Source: Herbidospora yilanensis
GTDB lineage: Bacteria; Actinomycetota; Actinomycetes; Streptosporangiales; Streptosporangiaceae
DNA length: 64,000 nucleotides
Assembly: GCF_001570565.1 (NCBI RefSeq)
Contig: NZ_BBXE01000020.1
Span: forward strand, 186,001-250,000
Direction of reading: 5' to 3'
Made by a program: the position numbers and the translations under genes. This document shows positions 5,525 to 37,807 of the stretch, one piece after another. Below the pieces are notes generated by a model. That model ran no database searches and was not told the origin of the DNA. It worked only from the letters and a program-made list of their open reading frames with translations. Each line of letters opens with the position of its first letter. The stretch's first letter is position 1.

Positions 5525-5547
5525 GTGTTCACCTTAACCGTGTGCGG

Positions 5548-5592
5548 CATGTAGCCAGTCTACATGTAGGCTCTCTATATGTAGCCAGACAT
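5548..5592. promoter_or_regulatory. PadR-type operator between padR and cydA
   Basis: Two related sites. 5548-5566 reads CATGTAGCCAGTCTACATG, a perfect seven-base inverted repeat with a five-base spacer. 5579-5592 reads ATGTAGCCAGACAT, repeating the same ATGTAGCCAG core 30 bases on. TACATGTA at 5561-5568 is a further palindrome. Known PadR sites follow the ATGT-N-ACAT pattern. The second site ends directly before the AAGGAG ribosome site of cydA (5593-5598), so binding would block cyd expression. Confidence 0.7.
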
Positions 5593-5604
5593 AAGGAGCC
5601 TTCC

Positions 5605-6771
5605 ATGGACGTCCTCGACCTGGCCCGGTTGCAGTTCGCGGTGACGGGGAGCCTGCATTTCCTGTTCGTCGTGCTCACGCTGGGCCTGGCCCCCCTTGTG
5701 GCGATCATGCACACCCGATACGCCCGCACCGGCACCACCCTCGACGAGCGCATGACGCGCTTCTGGGGGCAGATCTACGTGACGAACTACGCGCTCGGCA
5801 TCGTCACCGGCATCGTGATGGAGTTCCAGTTCGGGCTGAGCTGGAGCGGCCTGACCCACTACGCAGGCGACGTCTTCGGCGCGCCGCTGGCGCTGGAGAC
5901 GCTGATCGCGTTCTTCCTGGAGTCCACGTTCCTCGGCCTGTGGATCTTCGGCTGGCACCGGCTGCCCAAGTGGCTGCACGTCGCGACGATCTGGCTGGTC
6001 ACGATCACCGCCTACGCGTCCGCCTTCTGGATCATGGTGGCCAACTCGTTCCTCCAGCACCCGGCCGGAGCGGTGCGCGACGGCGACGTGCTGCGGCTCG
6101 ACGACTTCGGGGCGCTGCTGACCAACCCGTCGTTGTCGATGGCGCTGCCCCACGTGTTGTCGGCCGGCCTGACCGTGGGCGGTTTCGTGGTGATGGGCGC
6201 GAGCGCCTACCACCTGTTCCGGAAGACCTCCGACCAGGAGTTGTTCTCCCGGTCGTTGCGGATGGGCATCTGGACCGCGTTCGTCGGCACCATGATGGTG
6301 GTGGGCTTCGGGTTCGCCCAGTTCGGGCCGGTGACCAGCGTCCAGCCCGACAAGTTCACCGACCGGCCGCTGGCCGCGCTGGGCCTCGGTTTCATGATCC
6401 TGCTGGGGCACCTGCTCCAGCTCATCGCCCTCCTGCTGGTCGTCGTGGTCAAGTGGGCGCCGCGCTGGCGGTTCCTCCACCCGCTGATCGTGCTGGTCAC
6501 CCCGCTCCCGTTCGTCGCGGCCATCCTCGGGTGGATCGCCCGGGAGGAGGGCCGCCAGCCCTGGATGATCTGGGAGCGGCTGAAGGTCGCCGACGCCCTC
6601 ACCCCCGGGCTGACCCAGGCCCAGATCACGTTGTCGTTCGCGGGGTTCGTCGGCGTGCTGACGCTGCTGGCGGTCGCCGACTACGTGCTGATCTCCCGGA
6701 TCGTCCGGCGGGGTCCCGACGAGATCGCGCTGGGCGAGAAGCCCGCGCCCGCCCCCGCGCTGACGTTCTAG
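5605..6771 (+). CDS. cydA: Cytochrome bd quinol oxidase subunit I
   Basis: 388 residues, membrane. CydA binds hemes b558, b595 and d and oxidises quinol, reducing O2 without pumping protons. The conserved N-terminus ARLQFAVTGSLHFLFV holds the heme-ligand His18, and the Q-loop end motif GRQPW is present. It is shorter than E. coli CydA (about 520) because the Q-loop is the short form. The start is ATG 5605, with AAGGAG six bases upstream and the PadR-like operator in front. First gene of cydABDC; cydB follows after nine bases. Terminal oxidase for low-oxygen or stress respiration. Confidence 0.95.
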   Translation: MDVLDLARLQFAVTGSLHFLFVVLTLGLAPLVAIMHTRYARTGTTLDERMTRFWGQIYVTNYALGIVTGIVMEFQFGLSWSGLTHYAGDVFGAPLALETLIAFFLESTFLGLWIFGWHRLPKWLHVATIWLVTITAYASAFWIMVANSFLQHPAGAVRDGDVLRLDDFGALLTNPSLSMALPHVLSAGLTVGGFVVMGASAYHLFRKTSDQELFSRSLRMGIWTAFVGTMMVVGFGFAQFGPVTSVQPDKFTDRPLAALGLGFMILLGHLLQLIALLLVVVVKWAPRWRFLHPLIVLVTPLPFVAAILGWIAREEGRQPWMIWERLKVADALTPGLTQAQITLSFAGFVGVLTLLAVADYVLISRIVRRGPDEIALGEKPAPAPALTF

Positions 6772-6780
6772 GAGCGACTG

Positions 6781-7473
6781 ATGGAGATCCTGTGGTTCGG
6801 CGCGCTCGCGCTGCTGGTGGCCGGTTACTTCGCCCTGGAGGGGTTCGACCTCGGCGTCGGCCTGCTGCTGCCCGTCACCGCCGACCGCGACCGGGCGATC
6901 GGCGCCGTCGGCCCGTTCGTGCTGGCCAACGAGGTGTGGCTGATCGCCGCCGCGGGCGTGTTGTTCGGCGCGTTCCCCGCCTGTGAGTACGCCCTGAGCG
7001 CCAACTACACCGCCGTGGTGCTGCTGCTGGTCTCGTGGGTGGTGCGCGACGCGGGCCTGTGGTTCCGCCGCCGCCTCTTCACCCGCGCCTTCTGGGAGTG
7101 GCTCATCACCCTCGGGTCGCTCGGCGTCTGCCTGGCCTGGGGCCTGCTCCTGGCCGGCCTGGCCGGGTTCTCGTTCCCGTTCGGGCTCCTGTACGGCCTC
7201 CTCATCGCCGCACTGTTCGTGATGCACGGCCGGAGGTTCCTCGACTGGCGGCTGACCGGCGTCGGGACGCCGCTGGTCACCGGAGCCCTGGCGGCCGTGC
7301 CGGCGCTGGTGCCGCTGGCCGGGATGGCGGGCGCGGTCATCGGCAACGCGGCCCCGTCGGCGACCCTGACGGTGCTGACGTTTATGGTGTTGCCGTTCGT
7401 CCCGGTCATGGCCGGGGCGCAGATCTGGGTGTGGAAGGCCTTCGGCAAGGGGCCGGTCCCCGCCTACTTCTGA
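6781..7473 (+). CDS. cydB: Cytochrome bd oxidase subunit II, short form
   Basis: 230 residues against about 330-380 for typical CydB. The start is normal (FALEGFDLGVGLLLP, then GPFVLANEVWLIAA), and the last 35 residues resemble the normal C-terminal helix and tail (LTVLTFMVLPFVPVMAGAQIWVW). About 100 residues from the middle to late part are absent, equal to two or three helices. No frameshift is visible, so this is a clean shortening that may be natural in this lineage. It pairs with CydA in the membrane; CydB does not carry the catalytic hemes, so activity could survive. Coding density and composition match the neighbours. Confidence 0.85.
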   Translation: MEILWFGALALLVAGYFALEGFDLGVGLLLPVTADRDRAIGAVGPFVLANEVWLIAAAGVLFGAFPACEYALSANYTAVVLLLVSWVVRDAGLWFRRRLFTRAFWEWLITLGSLGVCLAWGLLLAGLAGFSFPFGLLYGLLIAALFVMHGRRFLDWRLTGVGTPLVTGALAAVPALVPLAGMAGAVIGNAAPSATLTVLTFMVLPFVPVMAGAQIWVWKAFGKGPVPAYF

Positions 7474-7483
7474 GGGGGGCTCG

Positions 7484-9085
7484 GTGCACAGAGGTCTCGT
7501 GCGGCTGCTGCCACGCCGCCACCTGACGGTGTGCCTGGGCGCGGCGGTGGCGGCCGGGCTGCTGGTCCTGGTGCAGGCCGAACTGCTCGCCGGGGTGTTG
7601 TCGGGGCGGTTCGCCGTCGGCGTCCTGGGCTGGCTGGCCCTGGTGATCGCGGCCCGGGGCGCGCTGGGCTGGGTCCAGGGCGTGGCGGCAGGGGCCACCG
7701 CGAGCGGGGTGAAGTCGGAGCTGCGCCATCGGCTGCTGCGCCGCTTCCAGGGCATGAGCCCGGCCGAGACCCGCTCGGGCGAGCTGGTGACGCTGACCGG
7801 CCGGGGCCTCGACGCGCTCGACCCCTACCTGACGGGCTACCTGCCGTCGATCGCGGTGGCGGCCGTGGTGCCGCTGGCGGTGATCGTCCGGTTGTTCGCC
7901 GCCGACCTGACGACCGCGCTGATCGTGCTGGTCACGGTGCCGCTGATCCCCGTCTTCGGCGCGCTGGTCGGCCTGACGACCAAAGAGGTGACCGAGCGGC
8001 AGTGGGCCGCCCTGTCCCGGCTGGGCGGCCACTTCCTCGACGTGGTGCGGGGCCTGCCGACCCTGCGGGCGTTCGGCCGGGCCCGCTACCAGGCGACCGT
8101 GATCCGCGACGTCGCCGGCGCCCACCGCTCGGCGACGATGAAGACCCTGCGGGTGGCGTTCCTGTCGTCGCTGGTGCTGGAGCTGGTCGCGTCCCTGTCC
8201 CTGGCGCTGGTCGCGGTGCCGGTGGGCCTGCGGCTGCTGTCCGGGTCGCTCGACCTGACGACGGCCCTGCTCGTGCTGCTGCTCGCCCCCGAGGCCTACC
8301 TGCCGCTGCGCGCGATGGGCACCCGCTTCCACGCCGCCATGGAGGGCGTCACCGCCGCCGACCAGGCGTTCGCCCTGCTCGAAGGGGCCGAACCGGCCGC
8401 CCCGCGCCCCGCGGTCGTCGACGAGCGGGTGCCCGAGATCCGCCTCGACGGCGTGACCGTGCGCTACCCCGGCCGCGACGACCCCGCCCTCCGCGACGTG
8501 TCCCTCACCATCGCCCCCGGCGAACGGGTCGCCCTGGTCGGCGAGAGCGGCGCGGGGAAGAGCACCCTGCTCCACCTCCTGCTGGGCTTCGTCACCCCCT
8601 CCGAGGGCCGGGTCCTGGTCGGCGGCGTCGACCTGGCCACCCTCGACCTGGAGAGATGGCGTCGCCACCTGGCCTTCGTCCCCCAGCGCCCCCACCTGTT
8701 CGCCACCTCGGTGGCCGGCAACATCTCCCTCGACGGCGCGGCCTCCCCCGAGGAGATCCGCGCCGCGGCGGTCGCCGCCCAGGCCGACGCGTTCGTCACC
8801 GACCTGCCCGAGGGCTACGACACCGTCATCGGCGAACGCGGCGCCGACCTGTCGGCCGGCCAGCGCCAGCGCCTGGCCCTGGCCCGCGCCTTCTGCCGCC
8901 CCGGCGCGGGCCTGCTCCTCCTCGACGAACCCACCGCCCGCCTCGACGGCCGCAGCGAGGCGGCGGTCATCGAGGCCACCCGTGCCCTGTCCGAGGGCCG
9001 CACCGCGGTGATCGTCGCCCACCGCCCGGCGATGATCGCCCTGGCCGACCGGGTGATCAGAGTCGACGACGGAGTGATCAAGTGA
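7484..9085 (+). CDS. cydD: Thiol reductant ABC exporter subunit CydD
   Basis: 533 residues, GTG start ten bases after cydB. Type IV ABC exporter half: about six membrane helices in residues 1-300, then a nucleotide-binding domain with Walker A GESGAGKSTLL, Q-loop FVPQRPHLF, signature LSAGQRQRLALARA, Walker B LLLLDEPTARLD and the H-loop in IVAHRP. With CydC it exports cysteine/glutathione to the outer face of the membrane, needed for bd oxidase assembly in E. coli. Its stop overlaps the cydC start by four bases (GTGA), so the two are translationally coupled. Confidence 0.93.
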   Translation: MHRGLVRLLPRRHLTVCLGAAVAAGLLVLVQAELLAGVLSGRFAVGVLGWLALVIAARGALGWVQGVAAGATASGVKSELRHRLLRRFQGMSPAETRSGELVTLTGRGLDALDPYLTGYLPSIAVAAVVPLAVIVRLFAADLTTALIVLVTVPLIPVFGALVGLTTKEVTERQWAALSRLGGHFLDVVRGLPTLRAFGRARYQATVIRDVAGAHRSATMKTLRVAFLSSLVLELVASLSLALVAVPVGLRLLSGSLDLTTALLVLLLAPEAYLPLRAMGTRFHAAMEGVTAADQAFALLEGAEPAAPRPAVVDERVPEIRLDGVTVRYPGRDDPALRDVSLTIAPGERVALVGESGAGKSTLLHLLLGFVTPSEGRVLVGGVDLATLDLERWRRHLAFVPQRPHLFATSVAGNISLDGAASPEEIRAAAVAAQADAFVTDLPEGYDTVIGERGADLSAGQRQRLALARAFCRPGAGLLLLDEPTARLDGRSEAAVIEATRALSEGRTAVIVAHRPAMIALADRVIRVDDGVIK

Positions 9086-30316: not shown

Positions 30317-31651
30317 ATGACCAAGCTGCTGGCCGCGGCGGCCCTCGCCGCCCTCCTGACCGTGCCCCTCGCCCCCGCCGCTCCGGCGGCGGCCGCCGCC
30401 CCTCCGGCGTGCGCCCGCATGACGGGACCACCCCCCGCCTCTCCTCCCCCGACGTCGGTGGACACGCTCGGGCAGGCGTTCTTCTGCGTGCTCGACCACT
30501 ACTACGCCGGGCCCGGCCTGCGCACCCAGGATCTGCTGAGGGACGCGTTCGCCGCGTACACGCGGAACCTGCAGCGGCGCGGCGCCGACGTCGCCGGGCT
30601 GCGGCTGCCCGCGCTGACCGGGGACCGCGACGCCGACTGGGCCGCCGCGGCCGCCGCGCTCGGCACGGGCGACCCGGTGGCGCTGCGCGCCGCCGTCGAC
30701 GGCATGGTCGCCGGGCTGCGCGACAACCACGCCCGGCACCACGTGCCCGAACCGCCGCGCGAGGGCGGCCCCGTGGGGACCGGCATCGTGGGCGCGTCGG
30801 GGATCGGCGGGGCGGGAATCGACCCGGCGGCCCGGCCGCCGTTCTTCATCACCGACGTCGTCGACGACAGCCCGGCCGACCGGGCCGGGGTCCGGCCCGG
30901 CGACATCGTGCAGGCGATCGACGGGGTGCCCGTCTGGGTCGGCGGCACGCTGAACCCGCTGCTGGTCGAGCAGGTGCGGCAACCGTCGTTCACGATGACC
31001 CTGAAGCGGCCCACGACCGGCCGGGTGCGCACGGTCAGGCTCACCGAGGGCCCGCTGACGCCTCGGGCGCGCACCCTGCGGGTCAGGGACGTCTCCGGGG
31101 TCCGGTACGTGCGGCTCCCCGGCTTCTACGACGGCGCCGCCGACCAGGTGATCGCGGCGCTGCGCGGCGGGCCCAAGAAGGTCGTCCTCGACCTGCGCGG
31201 CAACGGCGGCGGCTCCCCCAGAGAGGTCGTCAGGCTGCTCGGCGCGTTCGCCCACGGCAAGGTCACCAGCTACTTCTGCGCCTACGACGGCTCGTGCACG
31301 CCCAACCGGACCGACGACGGCGTGCCCCTGCTCGGGGCCCGGCTGGTCGTCCTCACCGACCGGCGGTGCGCGTCGGCGTGTGAGGACTTCAGCGCGGCGG
31401 CCCAGGGCAACGGGATCGCCCCCACCGTGGGCACCCGCACGGCGGGCGCCGTCTCGGGGCCGGCCTCCGCGTGGTCGCTCGGCGACGGCAGCGTGCTCGC
31501 GATGCCGTCGGTGCGCCATCTCGGCCCCGGAAAGGAGATCATCGACACGGTCGGCGTCCCGGCCGACCACCACGCCCCCATGACGGCCCTGGATCTGGCG
31601 ACCGGCCGCGACCCCGCCCTGCGCAAGGCGCTGTCCCTGCTGACCGGCTGA
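30317..31651 (+). CDS. Secreted S41 family serine peptidase with PDZ domain
   Basis: 444 residues. Ala-rich Sec signal (hydrophobic core LLAAAALAALLTVPL, cut near residue 28). PDZ domain about 150-235 (FFITDVVDDSPADRAGVRPGD). S41 catalytic domain after 260 with VVLDLRGNGGGS and the nucleophile Ser353 in CASACEDF, which resembles the S-S-A-E-D form of the C-terminal processing/tricorn-type peptidases; the typical downstream Lys is replaced (VGTRTAG), so a Ser-Glu type mechanism is more likely. Extracellular. Divergent from a two-component system that probably regulates it. Confidence 0.87.
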   Translation: MTKLLAAAALAALLTVPLAPAAPAAAAAPPACARMTGPPPASPPPTSVDTLGQAFFCVLDHYYAGPGLRTQDLLRDAFAAYTRNLQRRGADVAGLRLPALTGDRDADWAAAAAALGTGDPVALRAAVDGMVAGLRDNHARHHVPEPPREGGPVGTGIVGASGIGGAGIDPAARPPFFITDVVDDSPADRAGVRPGDIVQAIDGVPVWVGGTLNPLLVEQVRQPSFTMTLKRPTTGRVRTVRLTEGPLTPRARTLRVRDVSGVRYVRLPGFYDGAADQVIAALRGGPKKVVLDLRGNGGGSPREVVRLLGAFAHGKVTSYFCAYDGSCTPNRTDDGVPLLGARLVVLTDRRCASACEDFSAAAQGNGIAPTVGTRTAGAVSGPASAWSLGDGSVLAMPSVRHLGPGKEIIDTVGVPADHHAPMTALDLATGRDPALRKALSLLTG

Positions 31652-31672: not shown

Positions 31673-34600
31673 TCAGACGGGGAGAGGGCCGCCGTGGCCG
31701 GGGATGCCCCGGTCGGGCGGGATGACGTCGTCGGCGGCGTCGCCGGGGGTGACGCCCTGGGCGCGGGTCAGGTCGGCCAGCCGCCGGTGGTAGGCCGCGA
31801 CCGCGCCGAGGGCCTCGCCGACCGCGTTCAGCAACGTGGCGCCCGCCCGCTCCACGACGTCGGCCTCATGGGTCTCGAACGCCCGCAGGCCCTCCAGGAT
31901 CGCGGCCTTCAGGTCGCGGAGCAGGCGGACGTCGTGGTGGGCGTAGGCGCGGCACAACGTCGCGACGCGCGTGAAGTCGAGGTCCCTGACGGCCGACACC
32001 GTGGTCCTGACCAGCGTGGTCTCCGGCCGGGCCGTCAGGGCCGCCAGGTCGGCGTCGTAGGAGCGGATGTCCAGGTGCGGGTCGCAGAACCCGGCGGTGA
32101 GCTGCCACAGGGTGCGCAGGTCGTCGCCGAGCAGCCCGTCGAGGTAGCTGACCAGGAAACGCCGGTGGGCCTCGACGGCGAACTGCGCCTTGAACGGCGT
32201 CAGCTCGGCCGGGTCCTCGCCCGCGGTGGCCGCCATGGTGGTGAAGGCGTAGTCGGCGGTCAGCGCGTTCTCCATGCCGACCAGGAGGTAGACGAACCGG
32301 ACCCAGGTCCGGAACAGCTCCTCCAGCGGCAGCGCGCGCAGCCCCTCCTCGGTGAGCACCACGCCCCACTTCGCGCCGAACTCCAGCCGGCGCAGGTGGC
32401 CGATCTGGTACATGGCGAGCTGCGCGTCGATCTCGGCGTGCGCGTGGTGCAGGATCTTCCGGTACGCCGCCGTCGCGTCGAGCCCGACGTGGTTGCGGAC
32501 GATGTGCGGCCCGCCGATGTGCAGGTGCAGGAACTCGCCGACGTCGAAGACGGCCCCGCCGATCGCCATCCAGTAGCCCGCCTCGGCGGTGGTGTGCCGG
32601 GCCAGCTCCGACACGTCGAAGCGGGGGCCCTGCTGCGCGTGGCCCAGGTAGGTGGTGAAGACGTCCTGGCTCAGCCGCCCGTCGGCCGTCAGCCGCCGGA
32701 GGAACTCGCGGCCGTCGCCGGGCACGATCTCCGCGAGCGCGTCGAGCACGGCGACGGCGAACCGCGCGCTGCCGCACACGTAGACGTGGGCGCCCCGTTC
32801 GAGCAGCGCCCAGAGGTCGTCGGCCTCGGCGCGGATCACGTCGTCGACCCGGCGGCGTCGCCCGGCCCCGACGACGTGGCGCGCGCCGTCGAAGGTGACG
32901 CCGGCGTCGGCGCGGGAGAACGCGACCGACAGGCGCAGCCGGCCCTCGGCCGCCGCGGTCTCCAGATCAGGGTGGTGGACGAACTCTCCCGGCGACCGGA
33001 TCCCCAGGTAGAGCCGGTTCTCCCCCGGTCCGGTGCGGGCGGCGGCGAACCCGAGGAAGGGCGCGATGCCCGAACCGGCGGCGAACATCACGACGGGCCG
33101 GCCGGGATCGGCGGGCAGCCGGAACCTCGGCGTCGGCACGATCCGCAGCGACAGGTGGCCGCGGCCCTCCTGGGCCGCGCGGCGCAGGAAGTGGGAGGCC
33201 GTGCCGCGCCGTTCGCGGGGGTAGGACCACGGGGTCCGGGCGGAGGTGTAGCCGAGCCCGGCGACCACGAGCCGCAACGTGGTGGCCGCCTCGCCGGGGG
33301 GCGGGGCCGAGGCGATCGAATAGAGGCGGAACGGCTCGGGCGGGACCACCCGGCAGAACGCGTCCTTCTCCCGCAGGTCGGCCTTCCACAGGCGGGTGAC
33401 GTCGTAGCCGCCCGCGTACAGCAGGTTCAGGACGTCCCAGAGCTCCCACTGGTCTTCCATGCGGGCGTCCACGATCCGCTGCCAGGCGCCGACGGCCGTG
33501 CGCCGGATCAGCCGCTTGGCCACCTCGCGGCCGACGGGGCGCAGGCGGGCGAAGCGCAGCAGGGTGCGGAGGGGGAGCACGTCGACCTCGCCGAACCCGG
33601 CCCGGCCGGCCACCGCCGTCCGCCACTCGGGGGTGAGCGGCACCAGTTCGTCGCCGGTCGCCTGTAACGCGGCGACGGTGCGGCGCACGAGGTCGTCGTC
33701 GTTCTCGGCCAGCACGCCGACCCGGTCGCCCGGCAGGTGGTGCACGCCCTGCCCGGTGACGTCGATGTCGAGGTAGCACGTCCAGGCACCGGACTCCCCG
33801 GTGACGACGCGGCCCCGGCGGGCGGTCCCGAACACCACCGGCGCGCCCACCGGAGGGCGGCGCTCCTCCCGGACGGTGGCGAGTTCGCCGTCGACCTTGT
33901 CCCAGGTCCGGTCCTTGAACAGGCCGGTGAACCGGGCCCCGGTGGTCACCTGGCGGCCGACCTTGAAGGCGACCTCCAGGAAGCCGTACGCCTTGACGCG
34001 GTGCAGCCCCATCCAGCCGCGGTCGCCCACGTAGGCGTCGAGCATGGCGTTGTAGACGCCGCGCAGGGTGCTGTCGCGGGTGTCCTCGACGTACTGGCGC
34101 ACCGACACCTCGCGGAGCGCGGCCACCAGCTCCCGCCAGTGGCGGGGGAAGAAGCCGGCCAGGTAGGTGCTCTGCCGCCCGACCATCGAGCCGTATTCGC
34201 GGCGTTCGAGGAACGCGTCGATCGCGTGGACCTGCGGCTGGGCGGTGCCGCTCGGGCTGGGCGCGCCGTCGAAGATCGGCACGCCGGCCGTGCCGACCGT
34301 CTTGGCCCAGAGCACCTGGTCGAGCGGGCTGCGGCCCCGGGGGTTGGGGTCGATCTGCGGGTAGACGACCTGGGTGACGTACCGGAGCCGGTCGAGGATG
34401 ACCAGGAGGGAACGCTCCAGGGCGGCCGGGTCGTCGGCGACGACGGCCTCCTGTGCCTCGACCATGGCGCCCAGCACGGGCGTGAGCCCCATCGCGAACT
34501 CGGTGGTGACCAGGTAGAAGACACGCTCGGCCGCGTTGTCCCAGGTCGGCACGAGCAGGTCCATGTTGTCGAGCACGCGCGGCCCGGCCGGGTCGCGCAG

Positions 34601-35380
34601 CCGCCAGTTGTAGAAGAACAGGTCGATGTACGACACGGCGGGCGTCTTCTTGCCCAGCCGCCGCGAGACCGTCGTCCAGGGCCGCAGCAGCGAGTCGGGC
34701 AGCGCCTTCGGCGGGTCGACGGCCATGTACTGGTAGGCGTGCGCGAACACCCCGAGCATCGTCGAGGCGCGCAGCAGGTAGCGGTCGGGCAGCGCGTCGG
34801 GCCGGGCGTCGAGCACCGGCATCGCGTCGAAGGCCCGCCGCAGCGTCAGCCGGCGGAACAGCTCGGGCAACCGGGTGGTCATCTCGTCCCAGGCCCGGTG
34901 GGACTCGGGGAAGGACAGCAGCGGCGGCTCGGCGGGGAGGAACCCGTGGGCGAAGGACAGGAACCCGTCGAGTTCGTGCCCGGCCCGCCGGTTGAACGCC
35001 TCGGCCGCCTCCACCACCCGGCGGGCGGCGACCCGGGGCGGTCCGACCGGGCGCACCATGGTGAGCTGGCCGGCGTCGAGGGTGGTCGTCCGGTCGGGGT
35101 CGATGAACGCCCACGTCAGCTCGTAGCGGCCGATGCGGACGCGGTCGCCCGTGCCGAGCACGTGCCGGGTGATCCGCACGTCGTTGACGAAGGTCCCGTT
35201 GGAGCTGCCGAGGTCGGTGAGCACGACCCGGCCGCCGTCGGATTCGAGGCGCGCGTGCCGCCGCGAGACGGCGCCGTCGTCGAGCACCACGGCCGCCGCG
35301 CCGGCGTCGCGGCCGAGGATGACCGGAAGGGTGCACACCCGCTGGCTGGTCGCCCGGGTGTGCCGGTCGGTGAGGGTCAA
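31673..35380 (-). CDS. FHA / IDO-like dioxygenase / FAD-NADPH reductase / cytochrome b5 fusion protein
   Basis: 1235 residues. Residues 20-95: FHA phosphothreonine-binding domain (SRRHARLE, LGSSNGTFVND). About 120-505: helical domain resembling indoleamine 2,3-dioxygenase/PrnB proteins, with SVRQYV and the candidate proximal heme ligand His460 in MGLHRVKAYG. About 512-890: CPR-type FAD/NADPH reductase with RLYSIAS (FAD), AAGSGIAPFLG (NADPH) and YVCGSARF; no FMN domain. About 920-982: cytochrome b5-like with HIGG (His954) and a second His at 978/979. About 1000-1205: helical tail of unknown role. In all, this looks like a self-contained heme oxygenase with its own electron chain. TTG start seven bases after the CBS gene stop; ATT or CTG codons slightly upstream are alternatives. 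Confidence 0.8.
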   Translation of the reverse strand: MTLTDRHTRATSQRVCTLPVILGRDAGAAAVVLDDGAVSRRHARLESDGGRVVLTDLGSSNGTFVNDVRITRHVLGTGDRVRIGRYELTWAFIDPDRTTTLDAGQLTMVRPVGPPRVAARRVVEAAEAFNRRAGHELDGFLSFAHGFLPAEPPLLSFPESHRAWDEMTTRLPELFRRLTLRRAFDAMPVLDARPDALPDRYLLRASTMLGVFAHAYQYMAVDPPKALPDSLLRPWTTVSRRLGKKTPAVSYIDLFFYNWRLRDPAGPRVLDNMDLLVPTWDNAAERVFYLVTTEFAMGLTPVLGAMVEAQEAVVADDPAALERSLLVILDRLRYVTQVVYPQIDPNPRGRSPLDQVLWAKTVGTAGVPIFDGAPSPSGTAQPQVHAIDAFLERREYGSMVGRQSTYLAGFFPRHWRELVAALREVSVRQYVEDTRDSTLRGVYNAMLDAYVGDRGWMGLHRVKAYGFLEVAFKVGRQVTTGARFTGLFKDRTWDKVDGELATVREERRPPVGAPVVFGTARRGRVVTGESGAWTCYLDIDVTGQGVHHLPGDRVGVLAENDDDLVRRTVAALQATGDELVPLTPEWRTAVAGRAGFGEVDVLPLRTLLRFARLRPVGREVAKRLIRRTAVGAWQRIVDARMEDQWELWDVLNLLYAGGYDVTRLWKADLREKDAFCRVVPPEPFRLYSIASAPPPGEAATTLRLVVAGLGYTSARTPWSYPRERRGTASHFLRRAAQEGRGHLSLRIVPTPRFRLPADPGRPVVMFAAGSGIAPFLGFAAARTGPGENRLYLGIRSPGEFVHHPDLETAAAEGRLRLSVAFSRADAGVTFDGARHVVGAGRRRRVDDVIRAEADDLWALLERGAHVYVCGSARFAVAVLDALAEIVPGDGREFLRRLTADGRLSQDVFTTYLGHAQQGPRFDVSELARHTTAEAGYWMAIGGAVFDVGEFLHLHIGGPHIVRNHVGLDATAAYRKILHHAHAEIDAQLAMYQIGHLRRLEFGAKWGVVLTEEGLRALPLEELFRTWVRFVYLLVGMENALTADYAFTTMAATAGEDPAELTPFKAQFAVEAHRRFLVSYLDGLLGDDLRTLWQLTAGFCDPHLDIRSYDADLAALTARPETTLVRTTVSAVRDLDFTRVATLCRAYAHHDVRLLRDLKAAILEGLRAFETHEADVVERAGATLLNAVGEALGAVAAYHRRLADLTRAQGVTPGDAADDVIPPDRGIPGHGGPLPV

Positions 35381-35387
35381 CCGCAGC

Positions 35388-35831
35388 TCAGGAATGGTAG
35401 ATCACCGCACGGCACAGGTCGGCGCGGGAGAGCGTGCCCACGAGATTCCCCTCGTCGACGACGGGGAGCCTCCGGATGCCGCGCTCGATCATCACGATCG
35501 CGGCCCTGGCCAGTTCGTCGGCCGGGCGCACGGTGGCCGTGTCGCGCACGACGAGCGGGTCGATGACCCGGTCGGCGAGCGCGCGGCCCTTCTCCAGGAA
35601 GATCCGGAACGCGTCGGCGAGGGTGCCGCCTCCGGCGGTCACGTCGTCGAAGCCGGGCAGCATGGCCCGGACCAGATCCTCTTCGGACAACGATCCGGCG
35701 AACCTGCCGTCGTGGTCGATGACCATGAGCTGGCCGACCTCGGAGACGCTCACCACCTCGGCCGCCCGTCTGATGGTCGAACCGAGCCGGATGTGCGCCG
35801 GGAACGCCGTCATGACGTCGCTGACCAGCAT
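35388..35831 (-). CDS. CBS-domain pair protein
   Basis: 147 residues, two CBS modules (about 1-60 and 85-147) and nothing else: VSDVMTAFPAHIR, LMVIDHDGRFAGSLSEEDLV, then RRLPVVDEGNLVGTLSRADL. Such stand-alone pairs bind adenine nucleotides or SAM and regulate partner proteins. ATG 35831 has GGGAGG nine bases upstream. It lies seven bases before the FHA-dioxygenase-reductase-b5 gene, so the two are very likely co-transcribed; it may be an energy or nucleotide sensor for that enzyme (inference). Confidence 0.88.
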   Translation of the reverse strand: MLVSDVMTAFPAHIRLGSTIRRAAEVVSVSEVGQLMVIDHDGRFAGSLSEEDLVRAMLPGFDDVTAGGGTLADAFRIFLEKGRALADRVIDPLVVRDTATVRPADELARAAIVMIERGIRRLPVVDEGNLVGTLSRADLCRAVIYHS

Positions 35832-35911
35832 GCCGGGCCACCTCCCGATCATTCTCCGTGAGTGTAAATCGGGGGTATTCGGGTGTACAGGTGGGTAATC
35901 GTCCTGACTTT

Positions 35912-37807
35912 TCAGGTCAGGCGAAGTGCACTCAAGGTGTGGCCGGTGGCCGTTTTGAAGAGGTGCTCGGCGCGTTCGTAGGACAACCGGCGGCGGCCGG
36001 TGTGCGGGCACAGGTCGCCCTCGGCGGGGGCGCGGGCGGGCGCGGGGCGGCGGCCGGAGAGGAACAGCGGGCCGCGGGTGCGGTCGCCGATGAGGTCCGG
36101 GAGCAGCGCGGCCGTCCGGGAGCGCCACGTGATCCCGGTACGGGAGCGGCGGGCCTCCAGGTCGAGGTCCTCGACGTTGAGGGCCAGCACCCGGGTCACC
36201 GGGGCGGCCGACTCGTGCAGCAGCCACCACAGGGCCCGCTCGCGCGGCGCCGCATCGGCTTCGCGCCACGCCTGGGCGGGCACGGCGGGCCGGGGCGCCG
36301 GCGCGGGCTCGGGCCGCCGCGCGAGCTCCGCGACCAGGTCGGGCCGGCCGGCCCACGCGCCGAACGAGCGCAGCGCGGCCAGGTGCCGGTTCCACGTCCG
36401 GGCCGCCGTCGCGCCCCAGGCCGAGGTCACCACGCGGGCCGTCTCGGCGGGGGTGAGCTCCGCCACCGGGGTCTGCTCGCCGAGGGCCGTGCCGAGCCGC
36501 CGCAGCGTCTGCCCGTAGGACCGGGCCGTCGCGTCCGCGCGCCCGGCGAGGAAATCGGCCACGGCCGGGCCGAGCAGCGCCCCGGCGGGCTCGGCCGCCG
36601 GGACGCCGGCGGCCCGCCGTGCCAGGAAGGCGCGTTCGGCGGCGTTGTCGGCCAGCGCCGCCGCCCGCAGGAACTCCCGCCGGGCCGGGCCGGCGCGGCC
36701 CAGGCGCAGCAGCAGGTCGGCGCGCACGGCCGGGAGCAGGTGGTAGTTCCGCAGCGCCGGATCGGCGGTCAGGTCCTCGGTCAGGTCGAGCCCCGCCTGC
36801 GGGCCGTGGGCCATGCCGACGGCCACCGCCCGGTTGAGCCGCACGACGGGGGTCGGGGTCAGCCGGACGAGGAGTTCGTAGAGGGAGACGATCTGGGCCC
36901 AGTCGGTCTCCTCGGCCGTCGGCGCCTGGGCGTGGCAGACCGCGATGGCGGCCTGGAGCAGGTAGGGGCCGGGAGGCCCGCCGAGTTCGCGGGCCCGCAA
37001 CATCGCGGCGAACCCCCGGCGGATGCGGAGCCGGTCCCAGCGGCCCCGGTTCTGCTCGTACAGCGGGATCGGCTCACCCGACGGGCCGGTGCGGGCCTCC
37101 GCGCGGGAGGCCTGGATCTCCATCAGGGCCAGCAGGCCCAGCACCTCGGGCCGGGGAGCCGCCTCGGCCAGCATGCCGCCGAGGCGCAGCGCCTCCAGGG
37201 TGAGGCCGGGCCGCATCAGGTCGTCGCCGGACGCCGCCGCGTAGCCCTCGTTGAAGATCAGGTAGACGACCTCCAGCACCGACGCGAGCCGCTCCGCCGC
37301 CTCGGCCGGGCCGGGCAGGTCGAAGCCCACCCGGTGCTCGGCCAATGCGCGCTTGGCGTCGGCGATCCGCCGGGCGATCACCTGCTCGCCGGTGAGGAAG
37401 GCGCGGGCGATCTCCGCGTTCGTCAGCCCGCCGAGCAGCTTCAGGGTGAGCGCGACCCGCGCCGGAGGCGGCAGCACCGGGTGGCACGACAGGAACATCA
37501 GCCGCAGCGTGTCGTCCCGGTCGTCCTCTCCGGTGGTGTCATCGGCGTCCTGGCGCAGGTCGTGGGCGAGCTGACCGTGGGTGCGGTCGTGCCGGCGCTC
37601 GGCCCGGATGTGGTCGATCGCCCGGCGCCTGGCCACGGACATCAGCCAGGCGCCGGGGTTGCCGGGCCTGCCCTCGGCGGGCCACTGCTCCATGGCGGCG
37701 ACCAGGGCGTCCTGGGCGAACTCCTCGGCCAGGCCGACGTCGCCGACCAGCCGGGTCAGCGCGGCGATGATCTTCGCCGACTCCAGTCTCCAGACGGCGT
37801 CGATCAC
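35912..37807 (-). CDS. ECF42-type sigma factor fused to truncated tyrosine-recombinase domain
   Basis: 631 residues. Residues 1-165 are sigma regions 2 and 4 (AEEFAQDALVAAMEQWP, LTNAEIARAFLTGEQVIARR). About 170-405 is the long helical C-terminal extension of this ECF group (LIFNEGYAAASG, LYEQNRGRWDR). Normal proteins end near 405. Here the frame continues into a SAM-like integrase N-domain (TARSYGQTLRRLG, TWNRHLAALRSF) and the first half of a recombinase catalytic domain (LALNVEDLDLEA, GPLFLSGRRPAPARAP, RLSYERAEHLF). It stops at TLSALRLT, exactly where the catalytic H-x2-R box should come, so the H, R and Tyr nucleophile are missing. GTG start overlaps the DGPF gene by four bases. Confidence 0.82.
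   Translation of the reverse strand: MIDAVWRLESAKIIAALTRLVGDVGLAEEFAQDALVAAMEQWPAEGRPGNPGAWLMSVARRRAIDHIRAERRHDRTHGQLAHDLRQDADDTTGEDDRDDTLRLMFLSCHPVLPPPARVALTLKLLGGLTNAEIARAFLTGEQVIARRIADAKRALAEHRVGFDLPGPAEAAERLASVLEVVYLIFNEGYAAASGDDLMRPGLTLEALRLGGMLAEAAPRPEVLGLLALMEIQASRAEARTGPSGEPIPLYEQNRGRWDRLRIRRGFAAMLRARELGGPPGPYLLQAAIAVCHAQAPTAEETDWAQIVSLYELLVRLTPTPVVRLNRAVAVGMAHGPQAGLDLTEDLTADPALRNYHLLPAVRADLLLRLGRAGPARREFLRAAALADNAAERAFLARRAAGVPAAEPAGALLGPAVADFLAGRADATARSYGQTLRRLGTALGEQTPVAELTPAETARVVTSAWGATAARTWNRHLAALRSFGAWAGRPDLVAELARRPEPAPAPRPAVPAQAWREADAAPRERALWWLLHESAAPVTRVLALNVEDLDLEARRSRTGITWRSRTAALLPDLIGDRTRGPLFLSGRRPAPARAPAEGDLCPHTGRRRLSYERAEHLFKTATGHTLSALRLT

Follow-up and report, generated by a model that had tools for sequence, protein, structure and literature searches.

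An IDO-fold heme domain joined to an FAD/NADPH reductase and cytochrome b5 on one predicted chain in Herbidospora yilanensis and in bacteria labelled as several phyla

We analyzed a 64,000-nucleotide (nt) stretch of the Herbidospora yilanensis genome (contig NZ_BBXE01000020.1 of assembly GCF_001570565.1, positions 186,001 to 250,000), hereafter the window, and focused on one gene within it, the fusion gene. The minus strand of positions 31673 to 35380 is a single open reading frame of 1235 codons, corresponding to a protein of 1235 amino acids, and the first frame of the plus strand has a stop. The TTG start at 35380 is uncertain, and 7 further open codons lie 5' of it, overlapping the end of a gene for a CBS-domain pair protein. 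Along the chain, the fusion protein carries an FHA domain, a predicted heme domain of the indoleamine 2,3-dioxygenase (IDO) fold, an FAD/NADPH reductase, a cytochrome b5 domain, and a long helical tail. An initial annotation of this DNA had described a single-chain FHA, IDO-like, reductase, and b5 protein, and Pfam and PDB matches confirmed this domain order. The Pfam matches were to FHA (residues 20 to 84; E value, 5.6e-19), IDO (residues 144 to 339; 4.4e-28; 98.6 bits against a cutoff of 26 bits), NAD_binding_1 (residues 765 to 878; 2.2e-6), and Cyt-b5 (residues 924 to 996; 4.9e-12), with a weak match to FAD_binding_1 under its cutoff (residues 534 to 582; 6e-4).

The IDO-like domain (residues 108 to 512; 33845..35059, minus strand) was recognized by Pfam and phmmer and by Foldseek with an AlphaFold2 model. 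The model, made from 30 sequences, had a mean predicted local distance difference test score (pLDDT) of 94.3 and a predicted template modeling score (pTM) of 0.92. All of the best 50 of 370 Foldseek matches (E values up to 10) were IDO1 or IDO2; among these 50, the best E value was 8.2e-16, the query-normalized template modeling (TM) scores were 0.70 to 0.77, and the identities were 19 to 22%. The match to human IDO1/IDO2 covered almost the full length of the domain. As modeled, residues 108 to 512 have an IDO fold, in agreement with the IDO-like middle part described initially.

Heme ligand and pocket residues were counted across the window and 77 further loci (n = 78) in a profile alignment that included four stand-alone actinobacterial IDOs. 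His460 (34001..34003, minus strand), which corresponds to His346 of IDO1 and by homology is the predicted proximal heme ligand, was invariant (78/78), with a one-column shift relative to the stand-alone IDOs in the same alignment; it is the histidine that the initial annotation had placed at the proximal-heme position. In hhalign and MAFFT alignments, residues 358 to 363 (WAKTVG; 34292..34309, minus strand) replace the Phe226-Phe227-x3-Arg231 stretch of IDO1. The Phe226 position is Trp358 in 78/78, the Phe227 position is Ala or Gly in 77 of the 78 and Thr in 1, and the Arg231 position (residue 363), which is Arg in the four stand-alone IDOs, is Ala in 44 and Gly in 34. The Phe163 equivalent was kept in 76/78 and Gly378 in 78/78. 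The three replaced positions (Phe226, Phe227, and Arg231) are residues reported to be important for substrate binding by IDO1.

This replacement bears on the suggestion, made in the initial annotation, of a tryptophan dioxygenase. A self-sufficient tryptophan or indoleamine dioxygenase, yielding N-formylkynurenine and using the fused b5 and reductase to keep its heme ferrous, would fit the IDO fold and the proximal histidine. It would also fit the finding, given in the available part of the preprint PMC13142367, that P450 reductase, alone or together with b5, sustains IDO1 activity in vitro, a parallel in print to the annotation's naming of these two proteins as IDO1 reductants. However, the equivalents of Phe226, Phe227, and Arg231 are replaced, and a very long branch (length 3.1 to either side of the root) separates the family from the four stand-alone actinobacterial IDOs. 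The tree was built after 12 of the 78 family rows had been dropped as near copies and with those four IDOs included; because 21 of its 67 inner branches were weakly supported and letter make-up differed among rows, we claim only that the family is set apart from them. Moreover, on another contig of the host genome (G000 C44:9-2055; L153 and L154), a match to TDO (E value, 8e-50) adjoins a match to kynureninase (2.6e-110), and tryptophan breakdown therefore needs no fusion protein. Because the IDO1 substrate residues, a defining feature of that enzyme, are replaced, the fusion protein is not to be classified with the indoleamine dioxygenases. Judging from its sequences, the family probably does not act on tryptophan, and we regard the dioxygenase explanation as highly improbable.

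The IDO-like domain is followed by a reductase of the CysJ/P450-BM3 C-terminal type (residues 515 to 912; 32645..33838, minus strand). Its best PDB match was CysJ (2.7e-25), followed by the P450 BM3 reductase (2.2e-24) and also NADPH-cytochrome P450 reductase (CPR), while NCBIfam sulfite-reductase alpha models matched it to 3e-35, under their full-length cutoffs. The FAD and NADP-binding modules of P450 reductase are present, so that this part of the earlier label "CPR-type" stood. The FMN part did not: no flavodoxin/FMN domain was found among Pfam matches up to an E value of 1, and the reductase is therefore an FAD/NADPH module only. Arg685, assigned to FAD, and Cys869-Gly870 were each conserved in 65/65 sequences (the window and 64 loci, the cut-off reductase of locus L126 being left out).

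The cytochrome b5 domain (residues 917 to 1000; 32381..32632, minus strand) has the heme ligands His954 in an HxGG motif (32519..32521, minus strand; 75/75) and His978 (32447..32449, minus strand; 72/75, loci L131, L149, and L152 differing). A model of residues 914 to 1222 had a pLDDT of 95.0, and its b5 part superposes on solved b5 structures, with many of the listed Foldseek matches at a root mean square deviation of ∼1 Å over ∼80 columns. A b5 fold with two axial histidines (bis-His) is thus predicted, as the initial annotation had proposed. The stretch from 1000 to 1205, which that annotation had singled out for structure prediction, was modeled with high confidence (pLDDT, 95) as helical and not as part of the b5 domain: from residue ∼1004 on, the model shows a separate long-helix domain (residues 1004 to 1212; 31745..32371, minus strand) with helices of 30, 38, and 72 residues. 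This tail had no Pfam match. The listed Foldseek matches (50 of 527) were all b5 or b5-containing proteins, so they reflect the b5 part and do not inform on the helices, which we could not assign to a known domain; the tail may serve in docking or dimerization.

The fusion protein is a member of a family rather than a single odd protein, as judged from sequence comparison. One scan yielded the 77 loci, whose records bear the labels of seven phyla and include many metagenome bins; chains with IDO, reductase, and b5 likewise span seven phyla by label. The reductase was found in 65 of the 77 loci and b5 in 74, two of the three b5-less loci ending at a contig edge. Metagenome bins of Gallionella (L149 and L152) hold a very divergent IDO-b5 protein. 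Besides its full-length copy, Herbidospora solisilvae encodes, ∼57 kb away, a second IDO-b5 protein, reductase-less and 687 amino acids long (L060:8679-10739, the same locus as L140); the type I polyketide synthase gene near this second copy was set aside as a clue because such cases are too few.

Among close relatives, an IDO match within an open frame of at least 1242 amino acids was found in 19 of the 297 Streptosporangiaceae genomes searched and in 6 of 7 Herbidospora genomes, H. yilanensis included in both counts. Whole-gene ratios of nonsynonymous to synonymous divergence (dN/dS, NG86) in comparisons with six relatives were 0.13, 0.16, 0.22, 0.21, 0.29, and 0.49, the last for the most distant relative, and those of the IDO domain were 0.12 to 0.15 in five relatives and 0.30 in the sixth; these figures are rough because high G+C content limits the synonymous term (dS). 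The IDO domain had the lowest ratio among five domains in four of the six comparisons, with the reductase or b5 lowest in the remaining two. These ratios indicate purifying selection on the fusion gene. A whole-protein tblastn search of plasmid records gave 92 with a match, none spanning 80% of the query, and the ten listed matches all fell on the reductase stretch (query 482 to 949). PADLOC defense models had no match among 4 proteins.

The input domain differs across the family (FHA, cyclic nucleotide [cNMP]-binding, GGACT, or none found). In L110, L122, L129, and L132, the IDO domain is preceded by a gamma-glutamyl cyclotransferase-like (GGACT/AIG2) domain, and FHA is on the chain in 33 of the 77 loci. 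In the window, the FHA domain (residues 8 to 95; 35096..35359, minus strand) contains GRD, SRRHARL, and SSNGTFVND, which we take to be the phosphothreonine-binding pattern of FHA domains (GR, SRxH, NG). Its canonical residues GR, SRRHA, and NGT are in place, as would suit the phosphothreonine control suggested earlier, and a motif scan matched 30 of the 33 FHA-type relatives, the other 3 being off by one residue.

The gene for the CBS-domain pair protein (147 amino acids; Pfam CBS, 4.5e-21; 35388..35831, minus strand) is the upstream partner of the fusion gene; its stop codon precedes the annotated start of that gene by 7 nt, and the two genes may be cotranscribed. A CBS gene lay just upstream in 33/33 FHA-type loci, upstream in 16 of the 32 other reductase-bearing loci (3 of these loci having ≤900 nt of upstream sequence), in none of the 12 loci lacking the reductase, and in 49/77 overall; because the model used for the search derived from these very loci, the counts give presence and not independent discovery. 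Two of four CBS proteins scanned from relatives have a REC-like N terminus, under the Pfam cutoff. In Pseudonocardia oroxyli (L102:11430-13727), the FHA-type fusion gene is followed, within 20 nt, by the start of a gene for a Ser/Thr protein kinase with beta-propeller matches; a motif scan of the 77 loci found no other case of this kind. The FHA and CBS counts, this kinase gene, and the long helices of the modeled tail could speak for a redox or gas sensor, in which O2, nitric oxide (NO), or electron load at the hemes would change protein shape via the tail and signal through FHA and CBS. However, a full NADPH/FAD/b5 chain is costly and its cofactor motifs are kept, the IDO domain has the lowest dN/dS in four of the six comparisons, and no CBS gene turned up at the 12 reductase-less loci. 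We consider a sensor distinctly unlikely.

The neighboring genes vary among the loci. A RidA gene (Pfam, 1.9e-40 in L111) precedes the CBS gene in 10 of the 32 reductase-bearing non-FHA loci, the CBS gene being present each time, and a RidA-like gene was read by eye upstream in the G140 locus. Six Aquimarina-labelled loci instead have nearby gene clusters scanned once each as DsbA-like and HxlR, the DsbA-like cluster also occurring near L130. One scanned Gallionella locus (L149) has a response-regulator gene ahead, and one Streptomyces locus has an AraC/Cupin_6 gene.

We favor, with modest confidence, the reading of the fusion protein as a self-sufficient, NADPH-driven, signal-gated, His-ligated heme oxygenase that uses the IDO fold on a small organic substrate other than tryptophan. 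The conserved NADPH-FAD-b5-heme chain and the remodelled but conserved pocket are best read, on sequence grounds, as reductive activation of O2 for an organic substrate. NADPH would reduce the FAD of the reductase, from which single electrons would pass to the b5 heme, b5 standing in for the FMN domain that P450 reductase has, and from there to the His460-ligated heme. This heme would bind and activate O2 and oxygenate the substrate. The FHA domain (cNMP-binding or GGACT in some relatives) and the CBS neighbor would report the state of the cell and switch or place the enzyme, and the helical tail may keep the complex, or a dimer, assembled. The RidA genes found at some loci would fit a reactive imine or enamine product. 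A wider proposal, a family of self-sufficient His-ligated heme monooxygenases with P450 BM3-like use, in which phosphothreonine, cyclic nucleotide, or CBS signals exert control on the chain and some members yield reactive imines cleared by RidA, is possible but more tentative.

Several points weigh against an oxygenase of this kind. Eleven relatives have IDO and b5 without the reductase, and no RidA gene was found at FHA-type loci, the type to which the window's own locus belongs. The mapping of Arg231 comes from profile alignment (hhalign and MAFFT) at ∼20% identity, and phmmer shifts the stretch, though it also places no Arg there. Finally, the reductase may do no more than return the iron to its reduced state, because other superfamily members are described, in the portions of the literature available, without a fused reductase.

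The strongest rival is a role like that of flavohaemoglobin, in which the His-ligated heme and NADPH/FAD reductase would consume NO or reduce nitrite under stress, with CBS, FHA, and HxlR-type partners sensing that stress. Flavohaemoglobin shares the logic of a His-ligated heme joined to an FAD/NAD(P)H reductase, signaling-type partners (CBS, REC-like, cNMP, and FHA) are present at many loci, and the HxlR and DsbA-like clusters near the Aquimarina-labelled loci would be in line with such a role. NO or nitrite chemistry of IDO1 belongs to the background of this explanation; the entries listed by our literature search did not show it. On the other side, no globin domain was among the Pfam matches, the IDO fold being found instead, and RidA in part of the family together with the invariant Trp358 of the remodelled pocket suggests an organic substrate. 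We therefore hold the NO role to be rather unlikely and retain the oxygenase reading.

Other features around the fusion gene were recorded. An S41/PDZ protease gene (window 30317-31651, plus strand) is convergent with it, and the same neighbor occurs in 4 of 20 other loci compared. Genes resembling, by eye, cytochrome bd oxidase and its transporter lie at window 5542-9085 (plus strand). At window ∼35850-35930 (minus strand), upstream of the CBS gene, TGTACACCC (TATACACCC in one) is followed after ∼16 nt by a TACACT-like -10 box, as seen by eye in four upstream sequences. A DosR-type box upstream of the CBS gene was rejected: with the DosR consensus used, the best scores in the window and 22 loci with a located start (42 tried) were 11 to 13 of 20, equal to shuffles. 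Proteins of 1015 to 1018 amino acids begin 26 to 2026 nt downstream of the fusion gene in L107, L109, and L121; of these, the L121 protein was scanned and shows PIG-L deacetylase and cNMP-binding domains. Genes of the PIG-L type occur near 4 loci (one scanned), too few to serve as a functional clue.

How IDO is reduced in cells is a long-standing question, and the available text of PMC13142367 calls the in vivo operation of known IDO reduction systems, b5 with P450 reductase included, unclear. In bacteria labelled as several phyla, evolution appears to have joined an IDO-fold heme domain to a b5/reductase-type chain, so that a single purified protein would allow electron delivery to an IDO-type heme to be tested. 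Should oxygenation prove to be the chemistry, the fusion protein would be a compact, self-sufficient, His-ligated oxygenase, attractive for biocatalysis and as a redox enzyme under signal control. The initial annotation knew of no described protein with this order. The literature searched agrees, in that none of the entries listed described a fusion of an IDO-fold protein with a reductase or b5, though this cannot prove novelty and a PNAS 2021 survey of the superfamily, in which a mention is possible, lay outside the search.

By fold, the family most likely belongs to the heme-dependent aromatic oxygenase (HDAO) superfamily, as a new subfamily and architecture therein, to go by the model and alignments. 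The shared helical fold and the histidine at the heme-ligand place that characterize this superfamily were both found, by prediction and alignment, respectively. As far as the consulted parts of PMC11904535, PMC11791213, and PMC12921851 go, the superfamily holds monooxygenases as well as dioxygenases. With IDO1 and IDO2 (PF01231), the fusion protein shares the fold and the proximal histidine, but it differs in its replaced pocket residues, in its fused reductase, b5, and FHA, and in having only ∼20% identity. PrnB, MarE, TyrH, SfmD, and TDO likewise have a His-ligated heme and carry out diverse oxygenations; unlike the fusion protein, they have no fused reductase or b5 in the portions of their descriptions available. 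PrnB has been tried with separate b5 and P450 reductase and gave no product, according to the accessible part of PMC11791213. By analogy, the fusion protein may work like the self-sufficient P450s. P450 BM3 and P450-reductase fusions also place a heme domain and an NADPH/FAD reductase on one chain, with a homologous reductase module, but P450 BM3 has a P450 with a Cys ligand, whereas the fusion protein has an IDO fold with His, and b5 may stand in for the FMN domain. NADPH-cytochrome P450 reductase and CysJ are alike in their FAD and NADP(H) modules, but the fusion protein is without their flavodoxin domain. Flavohaemoglobin, for all its similar heme and reductase logic, differs in its globin domain, which was not found in the fusion protein, and the fusion protein has the extra b5.

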